Below are positions 43,915-58,379 of a stretch of DNA of 64,000 nucleotides, in pieces. The DNA is from Pseudogemmobacter bohemicus. GTDB lineage: Bacteria > Pseudomonadota > Alphaproteobacteria > Rhodobacterales > Rhodobacteraceae. The position numbers were made by a program, and so were the translations under genes. A model generated the notes under the pieces. It was not told where the DNA came from and ran no database searches. It worked only from the letters and a program-made list of their open reading frames with translations. The DNA lies in contig NZ_QNHG01000002.1 of the NCBI RefSeq assembly GCF_003290025.1, positions 772,417 to 836,416 of the forward strand, in the 5' to 3' direction. Within the stretch, counting starts at the first letter, position 1; every line of letters begins with the position of its first letter.

Positions 43915-43975
43915 ATAGTTGACGGAATCGAAGAACGGCTTCACGCTCTGTGAAAACAGAACAGGGAGCAATTTG

Positions 43976-44809
43976 ATGAATACCCACCTCGGCAGATGTA
44001 AGAGACCGGTCACAGCGGCACTGGCCGCGGCTGTTGTCGCCGCCGCCTCGCCCCTCGCCGCCCAGACCGCGCCGGAATTTGCGGCAGATGGCTTTTCGGT
44101 CTGCGTTGACCCGACATTCCCGCCGATGGAATTCATGGCGGATGCCGCCGATAAAGACCCGAGCGGTGTCGATATTGATGTTGCCCGTGCGCTTGCTGGT
44201 CTTTGGGGGGTCGATGCCAGTTTCGTCAGTATGGATTTCGCGGGCCTTCTGCCCAGCCTTGAGGCCGGTCGCTGCGACGCAGTGATTTCCGGCACCGTGC
44301 TGCGCGAGGACCGGCTGAAGACCTTCAATGCGGTTCCCTATCTCGACACAGCCACCGTGCTGATCGCCGGTAAGGGGGCGCCTGCCGTCTCTGATATTGC
44401 CGAACTGGCGGGTAAAACCGTGGCGGTGCAGTCCGGCACGTCTTACCCGGGCCGCATGGAAGAGCTGAATGCAGAGCTGGAGGCCGCAGGCCATGCGCCG
44501 ACCAAAATCCAGCAATATCCCAAGCAAAGCGATGCGATCCAGCAATTGCTGGTTGGGCGGGCGGCCTATGTCGTGACCCAGGACACCGAAATCGCTTATC
44601 GCGAGATGCAGGATCCCGGCAAATTCGACGTGGTTTTCACCATGCCAGCTGCCGCGTTCGAGCCCTTTTCGGTCTATCTGCGCAAGGATGATGCCGAGAC
44701 CGCAAAGGTCGGCGAGGCGGTGAAAGCCCTGGTCGCAAATGGCGAGCTGCTGAAAATCGTCGAGAAATGGAACCTGTCGCCCAGCCAGCTGAACGGCATA
44801 GGCGAATAA
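43976..44809 (+). CDS. Polar amino acid-type ABC transporter binding protein
   Basis: A 277-residue periplasmic protein of the SBP_bac_3 family, with a Sec signal peptide (cleavage near LAAQ, about residue 29). Family blocks: VCVDPTFPPMEFM, SGVDIDVARALAG, GRCDAVISGTVLREDRL and LAGKTVAVQSGTSYPG. ACAGGGAGCAATTTG supports the ATG at 43976. It is followed by one permease and one ATPase. Ligands of this family are amino acids and related cationic compounds, which suits the ureohydrolase downstream; a guanidino acid is inferred. Confidence 0.9.
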   Translation: MNTHLGRCKRPVTAALAAAVVAAASPLAAQTAPEFAADGFSVCVDPTFPPMEFMADAADKDPSGVDIDVARALAGLWGVDASFVSMDFAGLLPSLEAGRCDAVISGTVLREDRLKTFNAVPYLDTATVLIAGKGAPAVSDIAELAGKTVAVQSGTSYPGRMEELNAELEAAGHAPTKIQQYPKQSDAIQQLLVGRAAYVVTQDTEIAYREMQDPGKFDVVFTMPAAAFEPFSVYLRKDDAETAKVGEAVKALVANGELLKIVEKWNLSPSQLNGIGE

Positions 44810-44828
44810 GGGCAAAGACTGAACGGCC

Positions 44829-45554
44829 ATGAGTTTCGATCCCTCAACCTTTTGGGAGGCCCTGTTTTCATGGCCCTTCCTGCGCGGCGCATTGCTTACG
44901 CTTGGGCTGACAATCGCCGCGCATCTGACCGCGATCCTGATCGCATTGCCGCTGGCGGTGGTCCTGAACGGGCCACCCTCGGTGCTGCGCAAACTGATCA
45001 CCGCCTATGTCGGGTTCTTCCGGGCGGTGCCGACGCTTTTGCAGCTTTTGTTCGTCTGGAACGCGCTGCCGCAGATCTTCCCGATCTTCCGCGAGGAATG
45101 GTTCACGCCCTTTCTCGCGGCCTGGATCGCGCTTTCGCTGAACGAATCCGCCTATCAGGTCGAGATCAACCGATCCGCGCTGTCAGCCGTCGATGGCGGG
45201 CAGATGGCGGCAGGCCAGGCGATTGGCCTGAAGAAGTCGCATATCTACCGCTATATCATGCTGCCCCAGGCGCTGCGCGTGGCGCTGCCGCCGACGATGA
45301 ACGAATTCATCACGCTGCTGAAGCTCACCTCACTCGCCTCGATCATTTCCTTGCAGGAATTGATGACCGTCACCCAGATCAATGTCGCGCGCACCTTCCA
45401 GTTCTCTGAATATTACGCGGTGGCACTGACCTGGTATCTGGTCATGGTCTATAGCCTGATGGGGCTGCAAAAACTGGTCGAACGCCGTTTCCGCTGGTCA
45501 AGCCGTACCGAGGCCGCAGCCCTCGCTGAAACCCGTCGCAGCAGGGGGTGGTAA
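44829..45554 (+). CDS. Polar amino acid ABC transporter permease
   Basis: A 241-residue inner-membrane permease of the HisM/GlnP family. The EAA loop is seen around EINRSALSAVDGGQMAAGQA with QALRVALPPTMNEFITLLK after it. Several hydrophobic segments are visible. Only one permease gene is present, so a homodimer is expected. The ribosome site is weak, so coupling to the upstream gene 19 bases away is possible. Confidence 0.9.
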   Translation: MSFDPSTFWEALFSWPFLRGALLTLGLTIAAHLTAILIALPLAVVLNGPPSVLRKLITAYVGFFRAVPTLLQLLFVWNALPQIFPIFREEWFTPFLAAWIALSLNESAYQVEINRSALSAVDGGQMAAGQAIGLKKSHIYRYIMLPQALRVALPPTMNEFITLLKLTSLASIISLQELMTVTQINVARTFQFSEYYAVALTWYLVMVYSLMGLQKLVERRFRWSSRTEAAALAETRRSRGW

Positions 45555-45557
45555 AAG

Positions 45558-46280
45558 ATGATCAGCCTCAGAAACGTCAATAAGAATTACGGCACCTTCC
45601 ATGCGCTGAAAGATGTCAGCCTGGAGATCGCCCAGGGCGAAAAAGTGGTGATCTGCGGCCCCTCGGGTTCGGGTAAATCGACGCTGATCCGCTGCGTGAA
45701 TCATCTGGAGCCGCATGACAGCGGCGAAATCCGGCTCGACGGGCTTGAGGTGGGCGCGGCCCGGGATGTGCTGAAGGTCCGGCGCACCGCAGGGATGGTG
45801 TTCCAGAATTTCAACCTCTTCCCGCATCTTACCGTGCTGGAGAACTGCATCCTCGCGCCGAAACTCACCGGCGCGGTGAGCGACCGCGAGGCGCGGAAGA
45901 TGGCCGAGGATTACCTTGCCCGGGTCCATATCCTGGATCAGGCCTGGAAATATCCGATCCAGCTTTCGGGCGGGCAGCAGCAGCGGGTCGCCATTGCGCG
46001 GGCGCTTTGCATGAAGCCGAAGGTCATGCTGTTCGATGAACCGACATCGGCGCTTGACCCGGAAATGGTGGGTGAGGTGCTCGATGTGATGGGCGAGCTG
46101 GCATCCGAGGGCATGACCATGATCTGCGTCACCCATGAGATGGGGTTCGCGCGCAAGGTCGCGGATCGCGTGGTCTTTATGGATGCCGGTCGTATCGTCG
46201 AGATCGCGCCGCCCGAAACCTTCTTCGCCGCGCCGCAATCGGACCGGGCGCGCGCCTTCCTTTCTCAGATCTCGCATTGA
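45558..46280 (+). CDS. Polar amino acid ABC transporter ATPase
   Basis: A 240-residue ATPase of the GlnQ/HisP class: Walker [10 protein letters not shown], signature [15 protein letters not shown], Walker [15 protein letters not shown] and the switch His in CVTHEMGFA. It starts 3 bases after the permease stop with AGGGGGTGG as ribosome site and completes the importer. Confidence 0.95.
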
Positions 46281-46332
46281 CCGGAAGGGGCCGCACGCCC
46301 CCGGCAATGCCAATATACCCAAGGAGAATGAC

Positions 46333-47334
46333 ATGGCTGATTTCGACATCGAACAGGCCAAAAAGGATGTGGGCCGCTGGTACTGGCATGGTATCCCGAC
46401 CTTCTTCCGCTGCGAGTGGAACGAGGATCCCGCCGCCGCAGATATCGCCCTGATCGGCGTGCCGCACAGTGCCGGCAATGGCTCGACCGAGCGTGACCAG
46501 CATCTCGGGCCGCGGGCGGTCAGGAATATCTCGGCGCTCTATCGCCGCAGCCATGGCCGCTTCGGGATCACGCCCTGGGATCTGGTCACGATCAATGACG
46601 CCGGCGACACACCGCTGCCCGAGGCGATGAACAATGATGTCTCGGTCGGCCATATCGAGGCCTATGCGGCACAGTTTGAGAAGACCGGCACCCGGGTGGT
46701 GGCGATGGGCGGAGATCACGCCATCACCGGCCCGCTGGTCAAGGCCTGCGCGGGCGCGCATTCTTCGCTGACTGTCGGGCAAAAGGTCGCGCTGGTGCAT
46801 TTCGACAGCCATACCGACACGCTGATGCATCTGCCGCACTGGCTGGGCAACAAACGCTCGGCGGCGCATTGGGGCGCCTATCTCGTCGAGGAAGGCCATG
46901 TCGATGCGTCGAAATCCACGCAAGTGGGTATCCGACCGAATGTCGGCACCGCCGGGTCGCTGAACACCTCTGACGCGCTTGGCTACCGCGTCGTCGGCAT
47001 GGATGAGGTCGAGGAGATCGGCTGGAAGGGCGTGGTCGAGATCCTGCGCGAGCGGATCGGCGATGCCCCGGTCTATATCACCTTTGACCTCGACAGCCTC
47101 GACCCCTGCGATGCGCCCGGCGCGTCGAATCTGGAGCCGGGTTACCCGGGCATCCGTATTGGCGAAGCGGTTCGTATGTTGCAGGGCCTGCGCGGGCTGA
47201 ATGTTGTTGGCGGGGATGTGGTCTGCCTGATCCCGACCAAGGACAATCCGAACAAGATCACCGCGCAGAATGCTATGGTCGTCATGTTCGAGATGCTCTC
47301 GCTGATGGCCGATTACATCCACACCAATCGCTGA
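46333..47334 (+). CDS. Ureohydrolase (arginase/agmatinase superfamily)
   Basis: A 333-residue enzyme that should release urea from a guanidino compound. All six metal ligands are present: H129 (GGDH), D158, H160 and D162 (FDSHTD, where most relatives have DAHxD), and D252 and D254 (TFDLDSLDP). The N-terminus (WYWHGIPTFFRC) and NGSTERDQHLGPRAVRNIS differ from classical agmatinases, so the substrate may not be agmatine. AAGGAGAATGAC fixes the start. It lies between a cationic amino-acid-type importer and a demethylating flavoprotein. Guanidinoacetate, creatine-like, guanidinobutyrate or guanidine hydrolysis are all possible. Confidence 0.88.
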   Translation: MADFDIEQAKKDVGRWYWHGIPTFFRCEWNEDPAAADIALIGVPHSAGNGSTERDQHLGPRAVRNISALYRRSHGRFGITPWDLVTINDAGDTPLPEAMNNDVSVGHIEAYAAQFEKTGTRVVAMGGDHAITGPLVKACAGAHSSLTVGQKVALVHFDSHTDTLMHLPHWLGNKRSAAHWGAYLVEEGHVDASKSTQVGIRPNVGTAGSLNTSDALGYRVVGMDEVEEIGWKGVVEILRERIGDAPVYITFDLDSLDPCDAPGASNLEPGYPGIRIGEAVRMLQGLRGLNVVGGDVVCLIPTKDNPNKITAQNAMVVMFEMLSLMADYIHTNR

Positions 47335-47342
47335 GCGCCGCC

Positions 47343-49793
47343 ATGCATATCCCATCAAAGGCCGAAGTCGTCATCATCGGCGGCGGCATCGCGGGCTGTT
47401 CGATTGCCTGGCACCTGGCGAAACTCGGGATCACCGATGTTGTGCTGCTGGAACGCAAGCAGCTGACCTGCGGCACCACCTGGCATGCGGCGGGCCTTGT
47501 GACGCAGTTGCGCGCCTCGCAGCGGATGACTGAACTGGCACAATATACCGGTGAACTGTTCGGGCGGCTGGAGGAAGAAACCGGCCAGGCCACCGGGTTC
47601 AAGCGCAACGGCTCGCTGCGGCTGGCAAAGACTGCTGCGCGCTATGAGGAACTGGCGCGTGGCGCCTCGATGGGGCGCAATTTCGGCCTGCCGGTCGAGG
47701 CGCTGACGCCTGATGCGATCAAGGAACGCTGGGCGCCGATCTCGACCGAAGGGCTGGTCGGTGGCTTCTGGTTCCCTGATGACGGCCAGGTGAACCCTGC
47801 CGATGTGACCATGGCCTATGCCAAAGGCGCGCGGATGGGCGGCGCGAAGATCCTTGAAGGCGTCACCGTTACCAAAATCCTGCATGAAAACGGCCGCGCC
47901 TCTGGCGTGATGACCGAATTCGGCAAGATCGACGCTTCGAAAGTGGTGATCACCGGCGGTATGTGGTCGCGCGATCTGGCGGCGGATATCGGCGTGACGC
48001 TGCCACTTCATGCCGCCGAGCATTTCTATGTCGTGACCGAAGCAATCCCCGATCTGCCGCGCGAATTGCCGGTCATGTTCATGGCCGATGAGTGGAGCTA
48101 TTACAAGGAAGACGCAGGCAAGCTGCTGGTCGGCTTTTTCGAGCCGGGCGCGAAGCCCTGGGGTCAGCAAGGCATTGCGGAAAGCTTCTGCTTCGACGCG
48201 ATCCCGGAAGATATCGACCATATCTCGCCCTATCTTGAAATGGCGATGGAGCGGGTGCCGGTCTTACAGAAAACCGGGATCCAGCTCTTCTTCAACGGGC
48301 CGGAGAGCTTTACCCCCGACAACCGCTACCATCTGGGTGAGACCGCCGAGATCCGGGGGCTGTTCTCTGCCACCGGCTTCAACTCGATCGGCATCCTGTC
48401 TTCGGGCGGGGTTGGAAAATCCATGGCGTCCTGGATCGCCGATGGCCACCCGCCGGTCGAGCTGATCGACGTCGATGTGCGCCGGACGCAAAAATTCCAG
48501 CGCAACCGGAAATATCTGGAAGACCGTTCGGTCGAGACCATCGGCACGCTTTTCGACATGCACTGGCCGGGCAAACAGTTCGAGACCGCGCGCGGCGTGC
48601 GGCGTTCGCCCTTCCATGACCGGATGCTGGAGGCGGGGGCTTTTATGACCGAACTCGCCGGCTGGGAACGGCCCGGCTTCTTTGGCACTGCCGAAGAGCG
48701 CGCGACTATCGACTATTCCTATCACCGGCCCAGCTGGTTCCCGAATGTCGCCGCCGAATGCCGCAACACAGCCGAACATGTCTCGGTCTTTGATTACAGC
48801 TGCTTCGTGAAATACCGCGTCGAAGGGCCGGATGCGCTGTCCGCGCTGAACCGGATCTGCGCCGGGGATTGCGATGTTGCGCCAGGAAAGATCGTCTATA
48901 CCCAATGGCTGAACCCGCGCGGCGGGATCGAGGCCGATGTGACGGTGATCCGCGTTGCGGAATCCGAGTTCCTCGTGATCACTGTCGCGGTCTCGCAGCG
49001 CCGCGACATCAGCTGGTTCCGCCGCAACCTGCCCGAGGAGGCCCGCGCCCATATCAGCGACATCACCTCGGCCACGCCGATGCTGGCGGTGATGGGGCCG
49101 AAAGCGCGCGACCTCCTCAGCCGGGTCTCGCCCGATGATTTCTCGAATGAGGGTTTCCCCTTTGGTACTTCGCGCGAGATTGATCTCGGCTATGCGAGGG
49201 TGCGCGCCAGTCGCCTGACTTTTGTGGGGGAACTGGGGTTCGAGCTGTTGATCGACGCCGAATGCGCAGCCCATGTCTGGGAGGTGCTGGCAGAGGCTGG
49301 CAGGGGTCTCGGGCTGAAACCTGCGGGATATTTTGCGCTGAACGCGCTTCGGATGGAAAAGGGCTACCGGCATTGGGGCCATGATATCGGCGAGGAAGAC
49401 AGCCCCTATAACGCGGGCCTCGGCTTTGCCGTGGCGCTGGAGAAACCGGGCGGCTTCATTGGTCGCGAGGCGCTGCTGGCGCAAAAGGCGGAAGGTCCCC
49501 TGCGCCGCCGTCTGGTGCAGCTTCGGCTGGAGGGTGGTGACGATGCCCCGATGCTCTTCCATTATGAGCCGGTGACCCGCGACGGCGTGCTGGTCGGATC
49601 GGTGATGTCCGGGGCATATGGGCACCGCGTGGGGGCCTCGCTTGGCCTTGCCTATGTCTCCCATCCCGAGGGCGTCACGAAGGAGTGGCTTGCGAGCGGC
49701 ACATGGGAGGTCGAGGTCGCCATGAAGCGATACCGGGTCCGGGTGCAGTTCGGTTCCTGGTATGACCCTGGCGGCGCGAAAATCAAAAGCTGA
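47343..49793 (+). CDS. Sarcosine/dimethylglycine dehydrogenase-like flavoprotein with GcvT domain
   Basis: An 816-residue protein. Residues 8-380 form a DAO-type FAD domain (VVIIGGGIAGCSIAWHLA); TTWHAAGL (H48) matches the histidine that carries covalent FAD in this family. A middle FAO_M-like region is followed by a GcvT-type folate domain (about 430-810). Such enzymes oxidatively demethylate N-methyl amino acids and pass the methyl carbon to tetrahydrofolate. The gene starts 8 bases after the ureohydrolase stop with a weak ribosome site. An N-methylated product of the ureohydrolase or hydantoinase (for example sarcosine) is the likely substrate. Confidence 0.88.
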   Translation: MHIPSKAEVVIIGGGIAGCSIAWHLAKLGITDVVLLERKQLTCGTTWHAAGLVTQLRASQRMTELAQYTGELFGRLEEETGQATGFKRNGSLRLAKTAARYEELARGASMGRNFGLPVEALTPDAIKERWAPISTEGLVGGFWFPDDGQVNPADVTMAYAKGARMGGAKILEGVTVTKILHENGRASGVMTEFGKIDASKVVITGGMWSRDLAADIGVTLPLHAAEHFYVVTEAIPDLPRELPVMFMADEWSYYKEDAGKLLVGFFEPGAKPWGQQGIAESFCFDAIPEDIDHISPYLEMAMERVPVLQKTGIQLFFNGPESFTPDNRYHLGETAEIRGLFSATGFNSIGILSSGGVGKSMASWIADGHPPVELIDVDVRRTQKFQRNRKYLEDRSVETIGTLFDMHWPGKQFETARGVRRSPFHDRMLEAGAFMTELAGWERPGFFGTAEERATIDYSYHRPSWFPNVAAECRNTAEHVSVFDYSCFVKYRVEGPDALSALNRICAGDCDVAPGKIVYTQWLNPRGGIEADVTVIRVAESEFLVITVAVSQRRDISWFRRNLPEEARAHISDITSATPMLAVMGPKARDLLSRVSPDDFSNEGFPFGTSREIDLGYARVRASRLTFVGELGFELLIDAECAAHVWEVLAEAGRGLGLKPAGYFALNALRMEKGYRHWGHDIGEEDSPYNAGLGFAVALEKPGGFIGREALLAQKAEGPLRRRLVQLRLEGGDDAPMLFHYEPVTRDGVLVGSVMSGAYGHRVGASLGLAYVSHPEGVTKEWLASGTWEVEVAMKRYRVRVQFGSWYDPGGAKIKS

Positions 49794-49863: not shown

Positions 49864-51492
49864 TTACTGTCTCGCCAGCCCCTCCATGCTTGCGTTGCCA
49901 CTGCAGGCGCGCGCCTCGGCGCGGGCTGCAACCAGAAATTCGCTGCGATCAGACGCACAGGCGAGGCAGATCGGCTGATGGCCCGCCGAGGGGTCACGGT
50001 CCATTTCATGTGCGATATAGGCCTGGTGGCAGTGATGGCAGCGGATGCGGGCTTCCCAGGGATCATCGACTTCCTTGCGGGGGTCGCCGGGTCGCTCCTC
50101 AACAAACCAGTTGCGCTGTGCGACCATCAGGGATGCTGCGTAGATCACAACCGCGATGGCCAGCGTGACCGGAGGCGCCCAGATCCCGCCGAAACTGCCG
50201 CCGAAGATCATCATCAGGCAGCCAGTCGCAGACGCAAGGACCCAGGCTCCAAGTCCGCCCGGATTGACCAGCGGCACCCTGCCAGGCCTGAATTCCAGCT
50301 GATCCGCTCTGACACCGCGCAGGCTGCACCAGGCGATATGGGTCATGGCAACGCCCACCCAGGCGACAATGATCACGCCCTGGAATTGCAACGTCAGCAA
50401 GAGATAGCCAAAGACGTCGGTGAGCATGACCAGGAAGATCACCACTGTCATGATCCCGACCCAGACCGTACGCGGCCAGGAGATTTTGAACGCCCGGGCA
50501 AAGAAGTTCTGCATATTGGTTGAAGAGAGGTAGAAATTGATCGTGTTGATCCGGGTCTGGCTGGCCCAGACCAGCAGCACGCCGAAAGGCCCCATCAGCG
50601 CCACGATGCCGATGATCGCCGAGGTCTCGCTCAATGCGCCCTCAATCGGGATGGTGAAGGTGATGAACATCCCCACGGCGCCATTGATCAGCAGCGTGAC
50701 CACATAAAACGGGATCCCGAAGGTGATGCTGCCGTTGAAAGGCGCATCTTCCTTGCGGCCAAAGCGCGCCACATCCCAGGTCATCATCACCACGACCCAG
50801 ACCCCCATATAGACGGTAAAGGCGAACCACCAGCCAGGGACGCCGACATCGACACCGCCAGCCGGCAGCTGCGTCAGCCAGGCTCCGGAATAGCCATGCC
50901 GCGAGATTGCCCAGATCACACAGGCCACCAGCCCGAAGACATAAAGCGGCAGCAGGATGCCGTTGATCCGGTCAAGCCAGGTCCTCACGCCGCGCATCAC
51001 GAGGGGCGCGCTGTAGAGGCAGACGATGAAATACCAGAGGCTGATCGGGCCGCCGAAATAGTCCTGCAGCGCAATGGCGACGATCGAGCCCTCAGCAATG
51101 GCGTAATAGGTGATCGTGACGCCGAACAGGAGCGCGGCGAAAGTGGCGCCGACCTGACCGAAGACCGCACGGGAGAACAGGGCGACACTGGTGCCGCTGC
51201 GCGCGGCAAACCGCGCCGCGATGCTGCACAGAATGCCGTAGACCACTGTCGAGAGGGCGATCCCGATCAGGGTATTCACGGTTCCGACCGTCAGCGCGAC
51301 CATGCTGCCGACAACGACCCAGAACATTGCGCTCATCAGCCCGAACCAGGCCATCGAAAGCGAGAAGCGCGAACTTCGCCAGCTGGGCGGCACGATATGC
51401 AGAGAGAAATCTTCGGCGGCAGCCTGGCGCAGCACCTCGGGCTCATCATGGTAAATGATGTCGGGGGCAGGATGTGTTCTGGCAGTGCTCAT
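49864..51492 (-). CDS. NCS1-family permease (purine/cytosine/hydantoin type) with C-terminal Cys4 tail
   Basis: A 542-residue membrane protein with many hydrophobic segments and the NCS1 pattern (SLSMAWFGLMSAMFWVVVGS, MTWDVARFGRK). NCS1 members carry nucleobases, allantoin, hydantoins and related compounds, usually with sodium or protons. After the last membrane segment a soluble tail carries RCHHCHQAYI and PICLACAS: Cys 485, 488, 509 and 512 form a CxxC-N20-CxxC zinc-ribbon-like set. This is not a standard NCS1 part. The ATG at 51492 has GAGGAG upstream. Its location between the flavoprotein and the hydantoinase genes suggests hydantoin-type uptake. Confidence 0.88.
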   Translation of the reverse strand: MSTARTHPAPDIIYHDEPEVLRQAAAEDFSLHIVPPSWRSSRFSLSMAWFGLMSAMFWVVVGSMVALTVGTVNTLIGIALSTVVYGILCSIAARFAARSGTSVALFSRAVFGQVGATFAALLFGVTITYYAIAEGSIVAIALQDYFGGPISLWYFIVCLYSAPLVMRGVRTWLDRINGILLPLYVFGLVACVIWAISRHGYSGAWLTQLPAGGVDVGVPGWWFAFTVYMGVWVVVMMTWDVARFGRKEDAPFNGSITFGIPFYVVTLLINGAVGMFITFTIPIEGALSETSAIIGIVALMGPFGVLLVWASQTRINTINFYLSSTNMQNFFARAFKISWPRTVWVGIMTVVIFLVMLTDVFGYLLLTLQFQGVIIVAWVGVAMTHIAWCSLRGVRADQLEFRPGRVPLVNPGGLGAWVLASATGCLMMIFGGSFGGIWAPPVTLAIAVVIYAASLMVAQRNWFVEERPGDPRKEVDDPWEARIRCHHCHQAYIAHEMDRDPSAGHQPICLACASDRSEFLVAARAEARACSGNASMEGLARQ

Positions 51493-51721
51493 GAATTCCA
51501 GCTCCTCATTGGGTTTCTCTGAAATCGGAAAACCGGCTGCAGGCAGGGCAAAGGGCGGGGCCTCCAGGATCGTCAGGCTGGTGGCAGCGCCGTCACTCGC
51601 GCGTTGCCCCGAACCGCCCTGCACCCGGCCAGTCATGTTGAATGGGCGGATGCAAATCCAAGGGGGCGGTGGCAGAAAACCGGTATCCGTCTGAATTTCT
51701 TGTCTTCTGGCAGATCAGAAA

Positions 51722-51766: not shown

Positions 51767-53854
51767 TCAGGCTGCGGCTTTTACTCTTTCGCTTGCCTCG
51801 ACGCTGAGAACGGCGAGGGTCTTGCCCCAATAGGGCAGGACGCGGCGCTTCATCATCTCGCGGAACTGGGCGGTGGTATTGGCAAGCAGCTCGCCATTGC
51901 CCCAGTCGAGGATGACGCCATATTGCCGGACGCAGTCCATCTCATTCAGCTCGCCCGCGCGGTAGCGTGCCGCGATCCCGGCCGCATCCACATCAAGCCA
52001 GCCGGGGCGCTCTGCCGCGATCCGGGCGCGTTCCGCCTGGGTTGCCGCAACGTCGACCTCATATTGTGCGAGATCGGCATCAACCACCCGGATGACCACG
52101 CCATAGTCGATCCGCGCCCGTGCGAGGCTGACATATTCGTCGGCAACATCGTCGCAAACGAGGTTCGGATCGCGCAGCAGCGGGTCGCCCACGCCGCCAC
52201 CCCCGGCCGAAGGACGGCTGAAGACATCATCGAGCTCGATCGGCAGGTTCGAGAAGATCGAGCCGAGATAACGCTCGCGGTCCGTGCCCTTGTTCAGCCA
52301 GACGCCATGCGGGATCGACGGCAGGCCGCCCCACATCCCCCAGGTGACCGAGCGCTCGCGGTCGCAGCAATAGGAGACCACGATCCGCTCACCCTCAAAG
52401 ACCGAGCCGCCCTTTTCCGCGCCAAGCCCGCCGCGGGATTCGCCCGGGCCTGCGGAATCCTGCACGAAATCATGGCATTTGGTCAGCACGGGGGCGAGCC
52501 GCTCCTGGCCCTCCAGCGGCTGGATCCCGTATTGCGCGCCAAAGACCGGAGCGGTGGCGTTGAAACCGTCGCGCCCGTTCCGGCCGCCCCAGCCGCCCGC
52601 CATCCAGTCATACCACATGAAATAGGGCTTCTTCTCCAGCCGGGTGTCGCGTCCGCCCACCAGCAGATATTCAAGATTGAAGGCGCATCCCATGGTGCGT
52701 TCGGGCATGATATCGGCCCAGAGCCCGAAGACCGAATTCATCAGTTTCTCGAACGGCCCGGAACAGAACCCGGCGCAGGGGCTGGGCCAGTCGGCATTCA
52801 CCACGGTGCCCGGCTCGCCCACATTGACGGTGACCGCGCGGTAGAGGCCCGAATTCAGCGGCAGATCCGGGAACTGATATTTCGTCCCCGCGACGATCCC
52901 CGCGAAAGATCCGCCATAGGCCGCATTCAGGAAGGTCGAGATCTGCGGATGCGAGCCGGAGAGGTCGTAATGCGCGTGATTGCCCTCGATGGTGAATTTG
53001 ATCCTGATCGGGATCAGACCTTCTTCGAGCTTCGGGTCCTGGTCGATATAATCTTCGGCATACCAGGTGCCATCGGGCAGTTCTGCAAGGCGCTGGCGCA
53101 TCAGCACCTCGACCCAGTCCTGCACCTCGCGGAAGGCGATCTTGATGGTCTCGACGCCATATTTGTCGCAAAGGCGCTGGATTTCACGTTCTGCCACGGC
53201 GGTGGCCTCGGCCTGGGCCTGCATATCGCCGATCACATCGCCCGGGTTGCGGGTGTTGTTGGCGATCATCTTCGCCACATCTTCCAGCCAGACGCCCTTG
53301 CTCCAGACCCGGGTTGGCGTGATACGCAGCCCTTCGCCCATATGATCGAGCGCCGTGATGTTGAAGGAGCCAGGCGTCGCCCCGCCCATATCCGCCCAGT
53401 GGCCATTGGCCTGGGACCAGCCGATCATCTCGCCCTTGTAGAACATCGGGCGCAGGATGCGGGTATCGTTGAAATGGCTGCCGCCCCGGAAGGGATCATT
53501 GACGATGAAGACGTCGCCGGGATGGATATCGCCCTCGAAATCCTCGATCACTGCTTTGCAGGTGTAATGCAGTGTACCGACATGGGCCGCGATATCGCCG
53601 GTGCCCTGCATCACCAGATTGCCCTGCGGATCGCTGAGGCCGGACGAGAAATCCCGGCAATAGATCACGAAGGAGTAGCAGGTGCGCAAAAGCTGTTCGG
53701 CCATCTGGTCAACGATATTGACGAAGGCGTTGCGCAGCACCTCGAAAGTGATCGGATCCAGCTCTGATCTGAACTCTGTCAGCCGTTGCTCTGGCGGCGG
53801 CGGGAACTGGATGCCTTTGTCGGAAAGGCTGAGGGATTGTTTCTTGCCGGTCAT
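51767..53854 (-). CDS. hyuB: Hydantoinase B / oxoprolinase-family subunit
   Basis: A 695-residue HyuB-family protein. It begins its conserved part with LDPITFEVLRNAFVNIVDQM and has FIVNDPFRGGSHFNDT and GHWADMGGATPGS blocks. With HyuA it forms an ATP-dependent hydantoinase (or acetone carboxylase/oxoprolinase relative) that opens cyclic ureides such as N-methylhydantoin. AGGAGGACCCCGGC precedes the chosen ATG. It follows hyuA by 35 bases in the same direction. Confidence 0.9.
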   Translation of the reverse strand: MTGKKQSLSLSDKGIQFPPPPEQRLTEFRSELDPITFEVLRNAFVNIVDQMAEQLLRTCYSFVIYCRDFSSGLSDPQGNLVMQGTGDIAAHVGTLHYTCKAVIEDFEGDIHPGDVFIVNDPFRGGSHFNDTRILRPMFYKGEMIGWSQANGHWADMGGATPGSFNITALDHMGEGLRITPTRVWSKGVWLEDVAKMIANNTRNPGDVIGDMQAQAEATAVAEREIQRLCDKYGVETIKIAFREVQDWVEVLMRQRLAELPDGTWYAEDYIDQDPKLEEGLIPIRIKFTIEGNHAHYDLSGSHPQISTFLNAAYGGSFAGIVAGTKYQFPDLPLNSGLYRAVTVNVGEPGTVVNADWPSPCAGFCSGPFEKLMNSVFGLWADIMPERTMGCAFNLEYLLVGGRDTRLEKKPYFMWYDWMAGGWGGRNGRDGFNATAPVFGAQYGIQPLEGQERLAPVLTKCHDFVQDSAGPGESRGGLGAEKGGSVFEGERIVVSYCCDRERSVTWGMWGGLPSIPHGVWLNKGTDRERYLGSIFSNLPIELDDVFSRPSAGGGGVGDPLLRDPNLVCDDVADEYVSLARARIDYGVVIRVVDADLAQYEVDVAATQAERARIAAERPGWLDVDAAGIAARYRAGELNEMDCVRQYGVILDWGNGELLANTTAQFREMMKRRVLPYWGKTLAVLSVEASERVKAAA

Positions 53855-53889
53855 GCCGGGGTCCTCCTGTTGGTTTGGGGGGAGGGCGC

Positions 53890-55965
53890 TTATGCCGCGC
53901 CGAGCCGGATCTGGATGTTGAGCCATTCGTCGATATAGGCCACGTCGCCGGGCGGGATGACGGTGGTGGAATCGAGCTGGTCGATGACGGCGGGGCCTTT
54001 GATGGTGACGCCGGCCGGCAGGGTCTCGCGGTCGTAAAGTGCGGTTGCCAGCGCGGTCGGATGGCCGTGGAACCAGGCTTCACGGCTGCCTTTCGGAACC
54101 GCCTGCGCATTCGGGTCGATGCTGATCTTCGGGAAAGACGGCTTTGGCGTGACCCCAATGGCGCGCACGGTCAGGCGGTAGATCTCGACCGGGAAATCCT
54201 CGCGGCGGAAGTTGTGGGCCTTTTCATATTCGCTGTGGAAGATCGCCAGCGGCTCTTCGATCGAGGTGATTTCCCCAGGCACCGGCACCGCGAGCGAACG
54301 CCACTGACCCCGGTAACGCATGTCGATAAAGCGCTGGAAGGTCATGTCGCCTGCCTTCACGCCGTCCCGCTCCAGACGGTTGCGGCCTTCCAGTTCCAGC
54401 TTGTGGAACCCGGCTTCGACATCTTCCGGCTTCGCGCTGGCCGCGTCCTCGAAATACATCTGGGTGACGTCATGCTGCACATCGACCAGCATACAGCCCA
54501 CCGCCGAGGTCACGCCGGGATTGGGCGGCACGATGACCACGGGGATGTTGAGTTCGCGCGCAATATCAACACCATGCAGCGGACCTGCGCCGCCGAAAGC
54601 CACCAGCGCAAAGTCACGCGGGTCATGGCCCCGGGCAATCGAGATCAGCCGCACCGCATCGGCCATATTGGCATTGGCAACGCGCAAAGTGGCAAGTGAT
54701 GCCTCGACCAGATCCAGTTTCAGCGGATCAGCGATCTTCTGCATCGCGGTCAGCGCGGCCTCGCGGTTGAGGGATTTCTTGCCCCCCGCCAGCGCTGTTC
54801 CGACCCTGCCAAGGATGATATTGGCATCGGTATTGGTCGGCTCGACGCCGCCCGCCGCATAGCAGGCAGGCCCGGGCACCGACCCCGCCGATTGCGGCCC
54901 GTTGCGCAGCGACCCCGCCTTGTCGAGCCAGGAGATCGAGCCGCCCCCCGCGCCGATTGTCAGCACTTCGATCGAGGGGAAGCAGATCGGATGGCCCCAG
55001 TCGACCTCCCATTTGTCGGTCATGCGGATATTGCCGGCCTCGGCCAGCGAGATATCCGCCGAAGTGCCGCCCATATCGAGGCCGATGGAGTTCTGATAAC
55101 CACAGAGCTCGGCGAAATATTTGCTGGCGATGGCGCCGGCGGCAATGCCCGAGGCCGCCAGACGTGCAGCGTATTTCTCGGCCGTGGCGGGCGTCATCAC
55201 ACCGCCGCCGGAATGCAGCAAAAGCACATCGGCCTCATACCCGGCCTCGGTGGTGCGGCGATCAATATCGCGGGCATAGGGGCGGATGATCGGGGCGAGA
55301 ATGGTATTGGCCACCGTGGTCGAGAAACGGTCATCCTCGAAAATCTCGGGATGGGTTTCATGCGAGGTCGAAATGGCAATATCCGGCCCCAGAACTTCGG
55401 CAAGGATTTCCGCCATGCGCAATTCATGTTCGCCATTCACATAGGCATTGATGAAGCAGACGGCGACGGCATGAACCTCGCGCTTTTTCAGGATCCGCGC
55501 GATTTCGCGGGCGCGATCTTCATCAAGCGGTTCCAGAATCTCACCGCGGAAATTGATGCGCTCTTTGACGGCAAACCGGTCGCGGCGGCGGACATAGGGG
55601 GGCGTGCCCTCTTTATAGGCATCCCAGGGATCTTCACGGGTGCCACGGCCGATTTCCAGAACATCCCGGAAGCCTTCGGTTGTCACCATCGCCACCGGCT
55701 TGAAATTGCGGGTGATCAGCGCGTTGGTGGCGACCGTCGTGCCATGGGTGAAAAGCTCGACATCCGCCCAGTCGATATGGGCGGCTTCGGCGCCATTCAT
55801 AATCGCATCAATCGGGTTCTTTGTGCTGGGAACTTTTGCGACCGTCTGATTTCCATTCGAATCCAGCACAAAAACATCGGTAAATGTGCCGCCAACATCA
55901 ATTGCAAGGCGCGTGCGCGCCCGTTGCGGTGCCGGGCCCGGGCCCGCTCCGTCCATGCTCATCAT
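53890..55965 (-). CDS. hyuA: Hydantoinase A / oxoprolinase-family subunit
   Basis: A 691-residue HyuA-family ATPase subunit with an actin-like phosphate loop (LAIDVGGTFTDVFVLD, from residue 20), THGTTVATNALI, GLDMGGTSADISL, and GAGGGSISWLD. It uses ATP to activate the ring amide cleaved with HyuB. Close relatives hydrolyse N-methylhydantoin, hydantoins or 5-oxoproline. An AAAGGAATCGC sequence precedes the first of several close ATGs (55965, 55962 or 55956 are all possible). It is the first gene of the leftward operon, 371 bases from the ANTAR regulator. Confidence 0.9.
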   Translation of the reverse strand: MMSMDGAGPGPAPQRARTRLAIDVGGTFTDVFVLDSNGNQTVAKVPSTKNPIDAIMNGAEAAHIDWADVELFTHGTTVATNALITRNFKPVAMVTTEGFRDVLEIGRGTREDPWDAYKEGTPPYVRRRDRFAVKERINFRGEILEPLDEDRAREIARILKKREVHAVAVCFINAYVNGEHELRMAEILAEVLGPDIAISTSHETHPEIFEDDRFSTTVANTILAPIIRPYARDIDRRTTEAGYEADVLLLHSGGGVMTPATAEKYAARLAASGIAAGAIASKYFAELCGYQNSIGLDMGGTSADISLAEAGNIRMTDKWEVDWGHPICFPSIEVLTIGAGGGSISWLDKAGSLRNGPQSAGSVPGPACYAAGGVEPTNTDANIILGRVGTALAGGKKSLNREAALTAMQKIADPLKLDLVEASLATLRVANANMADAVRLISIARGHDPRDFALVAFGGAGPLHGVDIARELNIPVVIVPPNPGVTSAVGCMLVDVQHDVTQMYFEDAASAKPEDVEAGFHKLELEGRNRLERDGVKAGDMTFQRFIDMRYRGQWRSLAVPVPGEITSIEEPLAIFHSEYEKAHNFRREDFPVEIYRLTVRAIGVTPKPSFPKISIDPNAQAVPKGSREAWFHGHPTALATALYDRETLPAGVTIKGPAVIDQLDSTTVIPPGDVAYIDEWLNIQIRLGAA

Positions 55966-56336
55966 GCGATTCCTTTGATTTGAGCCAGGCAATACGTCCC
56001 GCGACATGCGGAATCGCAATGCGAATGGCTGCATCTGTGTTTTATTCTGAGAGGGAGAGTGGTTCCCGGCACGCTGGGCGCCATGAGAAACCTGCATTCT
56101 TTGTTGAATGCGCTTTACAAGACTACGCGATGAATATCTTCATCTACAAATGATTTTTTCTGTAATGCAGTCGCAAAGTGAATTTTTATAATTTCATATA
56201 AAACAAGACGCTGCATGTCTTTGTCGCGTGCTGCACTGCAACAGGCTACAAGCAGGTTGAATGCCATAAGGGAGTATTTCCGGCACGCCTCCGGTGATCG
56301 CATCTGTCTCCCGACATCTCGCGGGCCGAAAACGAA
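55966..56336 (-). promoter_or_regulatory. Upstream/leader region of hyuAB
   Basis: A 371-base gene-free gap, AT-rich at about 56110-56210. It must hold the hyuA promoter and probably an RNA leader. On the minus strand GATGAAGATATTCATC (complement of 56124-56139) forms a small hairpin. The next-door ANTAR regulator belongs to a class that binds paired leader hairpins to prevent termination, but the hexaloop here does not show the usual A1/G4 bases and no U-run terminator was found. I could not place a convincing promoter. Confidence 0.4.
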
Positions 56337-57062
56337 TCAGGCAGAGCGGTCGGAGACGCTGATAGCAGCGGACAGATCCCCGGCGGTGAGAAGCCTCGTT
56401 GCCTCGTGCAGATCTGCCAGGTTTGTCGTATCGCCGCCGTCGCCCCAGCCCAGGCGGGTCAGAACCTCGCTCGAAATGGCTTCGACGGTGGTGCGGCGGG
56501 TCATCGCGAGTTGCCGCAATATGGCATAGGACACTTTTTCGGAATGCCCCTCGGCCAGCATGATCGCGAGCTTTGCGCGTTCGACCATCCGACAGGATTC
56601 CAGCTTGGCCTGTGCCCGTTCAAGACTGAGGCGAATGCGCTGTTCCCGCCGGTGGTTGTTCACTGCGGCCAGCAGGTTTGTGAGGATGCCGAAAGGCCGT
56701 ATCGGCAAGCCGATCACGGCGTTGACCCGCATATGCAGCAGGCGGTCGATGGAGAGAGGGTTCTCATAGTCAATGACCGCAATGAGGACGGCTGAGGGGG
56801 TGTCGGCCTGCCAGTGAAAGGTCTGACTGCTCTCGATAACACGGTCGACCATCACGAAAATAATATCAATATCATCGGGATAGGTCTGCGGTGGCGGCCA
56901 TATCTCCTGGACCTGGCAGCCTATCCGTTCCAGATGTGATCTCAGCGCCAGGCCATCGCTGTCCTGAGGCTGAACAAGCAGAAAGCTCAGGGATCGCAGA
57001 TCCTTGATCAGAAAGGGCTGTTCTTTTCCGCTGGCAAAAGGCTCGCTTCGTCCGGGCCGCAT
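56337..57062 (-). CDS. ANTAR-domain antitermination regulator (AmiR/NasT-like)
   Basis: A 241-residue protein with an N-terminal receiver-like domain (about 15-140, LSFLLVQPQDSDGLALRSHL), a helical linker (RREQRIRLSLERAQAKLE) and a C-terminal ANTAR RNA-binding domain (about 160-220, ERAKLAIMLAEGHSEKVSYA). The usual phosphoacceptor pattern is weak, as in AmiR, which is controlled by a partner protein and not by phosphorylation. GAGGA lies eight bases before the ATG at 57062. It follows the AmiC-like gene and precedes hyuAB, so it probably allows read-through into hyuAB when ligand is present. Confidence 0.87.
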   Translation of the reverse strand: MRPGRSEPFASGKEQPFLIKDLRSLSFLLVQPQDSDGLALRSHLERIGCQVQEIWPPPQTYPDDIDIIFVMVDRVIESSQTFHWQADTPSAVLIAVIDYENPLSIDRLLHMRVNAVIGLPIRPFGILTNLLAAVNNHRREQRIRLSLERAQAKLESCRMVERAKLAIMLAEGHSEKVSYAILRQLAMTRRTTVEAISSEVLTRLGWGDGGDTTNLADLHEATRLLTAGDLSAAISVSDRSA

Positions 57063-57138
57063 TTCAGATCCTCTTCTCCGAAGAACGTTCACTGAATACG
57101 ATTGCACAAGGTCACTGATCACCGACCGCAAGGACGGT

Positions 57139-58329
57139 TTATTGCCTCAGACCGGATATCCTGGGCCAGGAGGTTGCCTGCGCAGCTGCATCGGACGAGA
57201 CGCCCATATCATCGTCAAATTCATAGGTGGTGCGATAGGGATCGGGGCGGATGGCTGCCTCTGTCTCGGCAACGATCTCGAACTGGCCATCGGCACGGGC
57301 AACCCCGATTTTAGGCCAGAGATTGCAATGCGCGTTCAGAGGATCGATGCTTATCAGGCCTTGCGGAGCCTCGAATGAGGCTCCGAGAATCCCTGAGCGG
57401 ATCGAATTGAGGTTGTCAGGGTCACCGGTCCGCATTGCCTGTGCCACCACATGGGTCTGGGTATATGCTGCGTCCCAGCACATATTCGCATGTGGCTCTT
57501 CCTGACGCAGCGCCCTGTAGCGTGCCAGGCAGGATCGGTTCGTATTATTTGATTGAGAGGCAAAATAGCTTGCCGCTGTGATATGGCCAAGGGTTGCAGA
57601 GGCGCCGATCTCCCGGATATCGGCCTCGCTTGTGGTCAGGCTTGCCACCATCATCCGGCCGGCATCGAGGCTATTTTCAACATAGGCTTCGTAAAATTTC
57701 CGATTTGCCTCACCAACAAAGTTGTTGAAGATTATGTCGGGATTATCTTTCTTTATTTTTTTAAGGAGCGCATCAAAATCATTGGGTCCGGCCCTGTCGT
57801 CAAGATAGGTTTCGCCTGCGATCCGGCCGCCTCCGGATTGGATCAAATCTCCCATGATTCGCCCGGATTCGCGCGGCCAGACATAATCCGATCCGACGAT
57901 ATAAAGGCGAGGTGCAGGGTTTTTGAGCAGGTGGATTGCCAGAAAGACGCTGTTCTGATTTGGAACGGCTCCGAAATAGACGATATTGTCGGAATACTCA
58001 AAACCCTCATATTGTGCGGCATAGCACAAAAGGGCTGCCTCTCTGTCAACCACGCTCAGCACGGCTTTGCGCTGGCTTGAGGTATAGCATCCCAGAATGA
58101 CCCGAACCTTGTTTTCGGAAATAAGCTCTGCGGCCATTTGCTGATATGCAGAGGGTTCTCCCATTGGGTCGCGTATGATGGGGCAAAGCATGCGCCCATT
58201 GATCCCACCACCAGCATTGATTTCTTCGACGGCAAATTCTGTTGCCGCCAGCATGCTGCGCTCGGTTACGGCAGAACGTCCCGTTTTGGAAAACAGAACT
58301 CCGATATGAATTGGCTGGTCGCTCGTCAT
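57139..58329 (-). CDS. AmiC-like cytoplasmic ligand sensor (Peripla_BP_6 family)
   Basis: A 396-residue protein of the branched-chain-amino-acid/urea binding-protein fold (HIGVLFSKTGRSAVTERSM, NAGGGINGRML, GCYTSSQRKAVL, FVGEANRKFYEAYV). It lacks a signal peptide when started at 58329, so it should stay in the cytoplasm like AmiC, the amide sensor that holds AmiR inactive. Length and gene order (sensor, then ANTAR partner) match the amidase system. GGAAAGG precedes the start. The ligand may be an amide, urea or hydantoin. A periplasmic transporter role is less likely as no permeases follow. Confidence 0.85.
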   Translation of the reverse strand: MTSDQPIHIGVLFSKTGRSAVTERSMLAATEFAVEEINAGGGINGRMLCPIIRDPMGEPSAYQQMAAELISENKVRVILGCYTSSQRKAVLSVVDREAALLCYAAQYEGFEYSDNIVYFGAVPNQNSVFLAIHLLKNPAPRLYIVGSDYVWPRESGRIMGDLIQSGGGRIAGETYLDDRAGPNDFDALLKKIKKDNPDIIFNNFVGEANRKFYEAYVENSLDAGRMMVASLTTSEADIREIGASATLGHITAASYFASQSNNTNRSCLARYRALRQEEPHANMCWDAAYTQTHVVAQAMRTGDPDNLNSIRSGILGASFEAPQGLISIDPLNAHCNLWPKIGVARADGQFEIVAETEAAIRPDPYRTTYEFDDDMGVSSDAAAQATSWPRISGLRQ

Positions 58330-58379
58330 TCGGCGCAAACCTTTCCGGGGGGGAACGGGCGATTGCATCGCAATCATAG

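Follow-up and report, generated by a model that had tools for sequence, protein, structure and literature searches.

In the sensor kinases of the SLC5/STAC type, such as CbrA and CrbS/MxtR, a transporter-like domain, a small cytoplasmic module and a histidine kinase are combined. Passages of PMC13022988 describe the STAC module as packing under the SLC5 domain of CbrA, whose motions it may relay to the kinase, and passages of PMC7918813 report that its deletion from CbrA had no visible phenotype in Pseudomonas fluorescens, yet lowered target expression in P. putida. According to passages of both papers, STAC is also found as a separate protein. In the ammonium sensor kinase Ks-Amt5, a transporter has likewise become a kinase-linked nitrogen sensor, there with the Amt domain joined straight to the kinase, without PAS, HAMP or STAC linkers (passages of PMC5764959). 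For NCS1 permeases, which include Mhp1, CodB and the fungal Fur proteins, passages of PMC6597760 indicate that the termini of prokaryotic members are shorter than those of eukaryotic ones, that the cytosolic tails of fungal FurE influence specificity, and that an N-tail motif, N-x-D/S-hydrophobic-x-P, lies about 10 residues ahead of the first helix, the C-tail having no ubiquitously conserved motif.

The permease analysed here is encoded in a 64,000-nucleotide stretch of Pseudogemmobacter bohemicus DNA (the window), and it resembles the NCS1 permeases in matching PF02133 above cut-off (28.8 bits against 23.5). In contrast to the general state of the NCS1 C-tail, the branch to which it belongs carries a conserved Cys module behind the last membrane segment, and in related proteins of other genomes this module stands between a permease and a hybrid histidine kinase. 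The latter proteins share with the SLC5/STAC kinases the combination of a transporter-like domain, a small module and a kinase. However, their permease is NCS1-like and not SLC5, the module is a Cys4 or Cys8, probably zinc-bound unit in place of a four-helix bundle, the three kinases checked have two hydrophobic segments behind it, and the window protein is without a kinase. A Pfam scan of the window protein at E ≤ 1 found no SLC5 (SSF), STAC or kinase domain. We regard the comparison with STAC as a likeness of working and not as one of membership, the module being, on this comparison, unrelated to STAC. Among the 4-20 top-ranked papers listed by each full-text search of the open-licence PMC literature, mostly judged from the listings, we met neither an account of NCS1-type sensor kinases nor one of the Cys module; a listed review of membrane sensor kinases, PMC8399564, contains 'NCS1' once.

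The full minus-strand open reading frame of the permease spans 49864-51636. We take the Met at 51492 as the start, giving a protein of 542 residues (Table 1), because orthologues have a Met at the corresponding place; the sequence around it is common to the L003 and L005 orthologues, and the stretch upstream would add 48 residues. The sequence-only reading had placed Cys 485, 488, 509 and 512 behind the final membrane segment, and translation of the frame confirms these exact positions, with base 50040 opening the codon of Cys485. It had also described a tail of about 60 residues; this holds for the Cys-bearing part, while by hydropathy the last hydrophobic segment stops near residue 460, so that 82 residues remain and the whole tail is longer than described. 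Against the TIGR00800 ncs1 subfamily model, the permease scored 22.2 bits, below the cut-off of 353.1, and it is therefore named here as a member of an NCS1-like branch and not of that subfamily. PF02133 was absent at E ≤ 1 from the Pseudonocardia orthologue (L009) and from two kinases (L032 and L042), and their kinship with the permease therefore rests on direct similarity and on the tree. By eye, the N-x-D/S-hydrophobic-x-P motif was not found in the window permease, which has no Asn from the start Met to the first helix. A search of the window genome gave a single match, the permease itself, and thus no kinase of the permease-fusion type.

Table 1. Permease gene, parts of its product and upstream neighbours, in window positions
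Feature	Position	Strand	Basis
NCS1-like permease gene, C-terminal Cys4 tail, 542 aa	49864..51492	minus	PF02133 match; start Met kept in orthologues
Membrane (permease) domain, residues 1-460	50113..51492	minus	hydropathy; end position of tail-less relatives
Putative cytoplasmic tail module, residues 461-542	49867..50112	minus	orthologue conservation; homology to kinase linker module
First knuckle CHHC, residues 485-488	50029..50040	minus	
HEMDRDP, residues 495-501	49990..50010	minus	nearly invariant; aligned with EDMAxCP of kinases
Second knuckle CLAC, residues 509-512	49957..49968	minus	
HyuB-like subunit	51767..53926	minus	Hydantoinase_B; nearest NCBIfam caprolactamase beta, below cut-off
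HyuA-like subunit	53890..56097	minus	Hydantoinase_A; nearest NCBIfam caprolactamase alpha, below cut-off
AmiR-type antiterminator	56337..57131	minus	AmiR_N + ANTAR
AmiC/UrtA-type binding protein	57139..58377	minus	Peripla_BP_5; NCBIfam UrtA below cut-off

A search for other proteins with the same tail, as the sequence-only reading had proposed, returned orthologues in which the four Cys are well conserved. With all genome samples behind the counts given here being partial, the four Cys are all present, and the tail is in frame, in 16 of 16 window-type permeases from Pseudomonadota and Actinomycetota. The set comprises the window protein, eight loci from GTDB genomes (L002-L009: Paracoccus (2), Cypionkella, two further Rhodobacteraceae, Labrys (2) and the actinobacterium Pseudonocardia), six plasmid proteins (L053-L058: P. 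aminovorans, P. aminophilus, Rhodococcus (2), Arthrobacter and Streptomyces) and L086, the sole addition from a survey of 346 actinobacterial genomes. The query for the eight GTDB loci was the last 98 residues, so that these have the tail by construction; the independent test of Cys retention is provided by L053-L058 and L086, which came from full-length searches, L053-L058 having been selected for reading since their matches extended into the tail. Plasmid records of at least 80% identity had the tail in 3 of 3 cases, two of which were read. In an alignment of ten diverse tails, 23 of the 68 columns do not vary, including the four Cys, D-P-R, E-V, W and E-M-D-R-x-P. In seven pairs, pN/pS was 0.12-0.20 for tail residues 466-525 and 0.09-0.16 for the permease; to judge from these ratios, the tail is under purifying selection. 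In orthologues, permease and tail share one continuous reading frame. That the Cys arose by chance, or the tail from a frameshifted neighbour, is rejected as having practically no chance of being right: nothing was found in favour of either origin, and both the in-frame orthologues across two phyla and the purifying selection argue against them. Among the matches shown (20 candidates per genome scored), a tail-profile search of 299 genomes of the phylum returned the own genome only; the window tail type therefore appears uncommon in its phylum, and the profile too specific for the kinases, which were reached through full-length permease matches.

These full-length searches, which covered 198 genomes from the family and 398 from the phylum, yielded a tail-less group and a kinase group. 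The kinase group has about 23-32% identity to the window permease (best E 1.4e-29) and is encoded by open reading frames of about 890-1370 residues, typically about 1100, the N-terminal half of which is a related permease; many of the matches extend through the tail. In both kinases scanned, HisKA, HATPase_c and Response_reg scored above cut-off, which makes them hybrid histidine kinases. The kinase loci are L012-L017, L031-L052, L061, L083 and L084, with contexts in L109-L128, and L023-L025, being second pieces of L015, L017 and L014, were excluded from counts. In all kinase loci read for the module (28, plus L061, L083 and L084), it lies directly behind the permease, with the consensus C-x2-C..FE.EDMA.CPAY..ICSLCCSLD.RC.D.CK. 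Eight Cys are present in 21 of 21 kinases, and the first four are common to kinases and window type. At the positions of the other four, the window type has Asp500 at one and no Cys at the rest, a lone 'second-site' Cys in L056 and L058 being an unrelated residue further along.

Alignment of 15 stand-alone tails with 28 kinase modules in hhalign gave a score of 33.9 (probability 86%, P 4.7e-6). Controls, in which the Cys columns were fixed and the remaining columns among the first 62 were permuted, had a mean of 13.3 (SD 3.4, maximum 23.6), and 0 of 200 reached the real score; therefore, the likeness exceeds Cys spacing. A run that contained one wrong-frame row (L013, then excluded) scored 26.2 (probability 38%, P 5.8e-5). 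We take these profile alignments to show that the window tail is homologous to the kinase module. Because two hydrophobic segments separate module and kinase in the three kinases checked, the module would lie on the kinase's, cytoplasmic, side. The role of the tail as a linker in permease-type sensor kinases is a wider fact that the sequence-only reading had not foreseen.

Other relatives do without the tail or carry it in altered form. The tail-less permeases, some of which lie beside HyuAB or PxpA and which are often annotated as allantoin permeases, belong to the same clade as the window protein and have similar neighbours, with 41-45% identity to it in genomes and 37-46% in plasmids. They differ from it in their end: the 14 whole proteins stop 8-22 residues past the position of residue 458, and none of the frames on that strand has a Cys module within the 400 bases that follow. 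A fifteenth (L087) is cut by a contig end and was left uncounted, also in the tree labels. The usual NCS1 ending soon past the last helix, with which the sequence-only reading had contrasted this tail, therefore holds in these 14 permeases, and additionally in five CodB-type proteins. In the tree set, the stand-alone kin of the kinase clade, from Klebsiella (L060) and Actinobacteria, have the module as their C-terminal part. Two of them have eight Cys (L091 and L094), five have the first four (L060, L088-L090 and L097), and four have one Cys within the preserved surrounding frame F-E-R-P-D-M..S-S-L (L062, L093, L095 and L099). Of the last, L062, L093 and L095 group with the four-Cys L097 at weak support (87/55), and L099 stands apart.

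In a tree of the permease domain only (62 rows, 61 of them labelled for tail presence), the kinases form a single clade (100/100), which together with tail-bearing stand-alone proteins makes up a larger clade (100/99). Window-type and tail-less proteins form the second clade (100/99), within which 12 tail-less proteins are a sub-clade (100/97) and the tail-less L082 pairs with L009 (100/99). Tail presence costs three changes over the 61 labelled rows. As the kinases are nested in tail-bearing stand-alone permeases, the tail is probably older than the kinase fusion. The simplest account would be an old tail with at least two losses and a kinase gained once; alternatively, the tail could have passed from one of the two clades to the other. 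Long branches (L108, L082, L057, L104 and L012) and the joining of a far outgroup blur the details of these histories.

The sequence-only reading had called the tail zinc-ribbon-like, and this description is borne out in part. The tail has two Cys-x2-Cys knuckles spaced 20-21 residues apart. Among 42 aligned tail-bearing proteins (10 window-type, 21 kinases and 11 others), 38 have the four Cys, four have one, and none has two or three. Such an all-or-none pattern is as expected where a metal site common to the four Cys is lost, although few events underlie it. AlphaFold modelled the full-length protein, from a nine-row alignment, with a poor membrane part (mean pLDDT 38.7), the tail being the best part, and the tail alone at a moderate pLDDT of 71 and pTM of 0.49. 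Hydropathy shows membrane segments in the permease part, for which the 12-helix LeuT fold of NCS1 proteins would be the expected arrangement. The order of elements in the tail model, namely a strand, a knuckle, a strand, a helix beginning in the second knuckle and then a long helix, is treble-clef-like as predicted. The knuckle pattern, the joint loss of Cys and this moderate model thus favour the description. Against it, no significant fold match to the tail model was found with Foldseek (top E 1.2, to the CHFR Cys-rich domain, followed by a mixture of PHD fingers, CW fingers and unrelated proteins) or VIA-align (top Z 2.5, zinc fingers mixed with unrelated proteins), absence from those lists carrying no weight, and Foldseek with the full-length model gave nothing usable. 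No Pfam zinc-finger family scored above cut-off in seven fragments (top Prok-RING_1, 16.4 bits against 29.1). Among solved structures searched by sequence, none matched the permease at E ≤ 1, and the tail profile had two chance-level matches. On balance, the two knuckles probably hold one structural zinc. A c-type haem at CHHCH was also considered, as CxxCH is present in the window protein and L002 and cytochrome c7 (PF14522) gave E 0.02 at 15.1 bits, below its cut-off of 24.8. However, a His follows the second Cys in just 2 of 10 window-type proteins, and the module would be on the cytoplasmic side; contradicted by the orthologues, this reading is rejected with hardly any doubt.

On the minus strand of the window, the genes run in the order amiC-like, amiR-like, hyuA, hyuB and permease. 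Of the 14 other window-type loci searched, nine have HyuA-HyuB adjoining the permease; in the 4.6-6 kb flanks of the remaining five (L005 and L055-L058), the pair was not found. HyuA-HyuB also lie beside four tail-less relatives (L063, L064, L079 and L081). For instance, there is no HyuA or HyuB match upstream in P. aminovorans HPD-2 (L005:1-4638), and P. aminovorans JCM7685 (L053) has both. AmiC-AmiR are next to the permease, and convergent with it, in L005, L006, L008 and L053. One tail-less permease sits behind a pxpA operon. Among the tail-bearing actinobacterial loci, L055 has a carbon-nitrogen hydrolase and luciferase-like monooxygenases as neighbours, L056 a gamma-glutamyltranspeptidase, and L057 (Streptomyces) a 2-nitroimidazole nitrohydrolase and a molybdopterin enzyme. 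From the HyuAB and AmiC-AmiR neighbours, the substrate of the window permease would be a cyclic amide. In the context of caprolactam, an NCS1 permease is not named in seven passages of PMC6061476, and the word 'permease' is absent from PMC8453981. Convergent with the permease operon, a plus-strand cluster at 43919-49793 encodes an apparent amino-acid-type ABC importer (as read from the open reading frames), an agmatinase-like arginase-family protein and a DAO/GCV_T enzyme.

The surroundings of the kinases are more uniform. The 20 kinase loci were picked before their contexts were known, with lower-scoring ones left out and G251 omitted since its tail is close to that of G576. A formamidase or urease is near the kinase in all 20: formamidase in 19, and urease with urt genes in the exception (L126). 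An amide-type ABC importer or amide-binding protein, transcribed away from the kinase, is present in 18 of 20 (L109 has formamidase only), and a LuxR-type response regulator in 17 of 20 (threshold E 1e-12, half of the query). In ten control regions taken 90-100 kb off in ten of the same genomes, formamidase, urease, amidase and amide-binding protein were found in none, and three had weak generic ABC ATPase matches. Annotated records of Burkholderia vietnamiensis pBVIE02 and Methylosinus pOB3b1 concur on this context. Urease also adjoins the permease in 5 of 10 actinobacterial stand-alone loci (L132, L133, L135, L136 and L138) and not in the other five; the tails of L091 and L092 are identical, and L132 and L133 are thus scarcely independent. 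The Klebsiella permease with the four-Cys module (L060:6133-7740) comes after a urease operon, behind ureG, and the Arthrobacter L062 permease lies ahead of an aliphatic amidase.

Taken as a whole, the explanation that we prefer, and to which we give an even chance, is that the tail is a zinc-stabilised cytoplasmic coupling or gating module on an NCS1-like permease branch. The permease would be a member of a deep branch tied to small amides, urea, lactam or hydantoin-like compounds. Its cytoplasmic module, about 50 residues long, would have one structural zinc held by the two Cys-x2-Cys knuckles. Most likely, the module packs against the permease at its inner face, where it would move with, or restrain, the inward-facing gate and so provide intramolecular coupling (gating). 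One clade has the module with four additional Cys and, behind it, two membrane helices and the hybrid histidine kinase, to which the state of the permease would be handed beside amide and urea operons. In the window protein, which is without a kinase, the module may act on the permease itself or on some partner. The zinc, the cytoplasmic docking, the gating and the substrate are what we infer here. The permease-kinase fusions are a candidate amide/urea transceptor family. It is possible, if on the whole doubtful, that the NCS1-like branch is a further, independent transceptor lineage for amides and urea, in which a zinc module, at first a gating tail of stand-alone permeases, became a kinase adaptor and of which the window protein is a stand-alone member that may signal amide status in trans.

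Counted against the gating module are the 14 tail-less relatives, which share the clade of the window protein and presumably work without it, and the four stand-alone relatives that keep its frame with three of four Cys lost; the family as a whole therefore does not depend on the module. The same two groups favour an alternative in which the tail is a zinc-held element for folding, dimer contact or membrane delivery and plays no role in gating or sensing. Since non-Cys residues such as EMDR are kept over two phyla, and the module is reused between permease and kinase, we consider this rather unlikely. The Cys might otherwise be a metal or redox switch, tuning uptake to zinc or oxidant levels through zinc loss or a disulphide. 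Two CxxC pairs would suit a switch, Hsp33 is among the non-significant structural matches, and a TonB receptor and FecR lie upstream in L053 and an ArsR/SmtB regulator downstream in L054. However, these metal-related genes are not common to L053 and L054, none of the kind is among the window operon genes scanned, the kinases have amide/urea surroundings, and their eight Cys are invariant in 21 of 21, as for a structural site; a switch is therefore improbable.

The neighbouring metal-dependent hydrolases had been suggested by the sequence-only reading as partners of the tail, and docking of the HyuA-HyuB lactamase/hydantoinase could serve channelling. Although their adjacency in the window and in nine of the other loci is in keeping with this, the tail occurs without HyuAB in the flanks of five loci and HyuAB adjoins four permeases that have no tail. 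The suggestion is thus not supported, and we regard docking as very unlikely.

To return to the gating module, its presence at the permease-kinase junction suggests that the tail reads transporter state. The NCS1-like branch bears on the route from transporter to sensor, as it spans stand-alone permeases without the module, four-Cys and eight-Cys forms, the Cys-poor remnant and the kinase fusion. Because all these stages are present in one branch, the steps from transporter to sensor are testable singly. In many Proteobacteria, the kinases themselves are candidates for the sensor that serves the formamidase/amide-importer operons and the urease operons.

As a separate observation on the tail end, the Streptomyces permease (L057:5983-7974) runs past the Cys tail into another domain, and the protein is annotated as SCP2 sterol-binding domain-containing.
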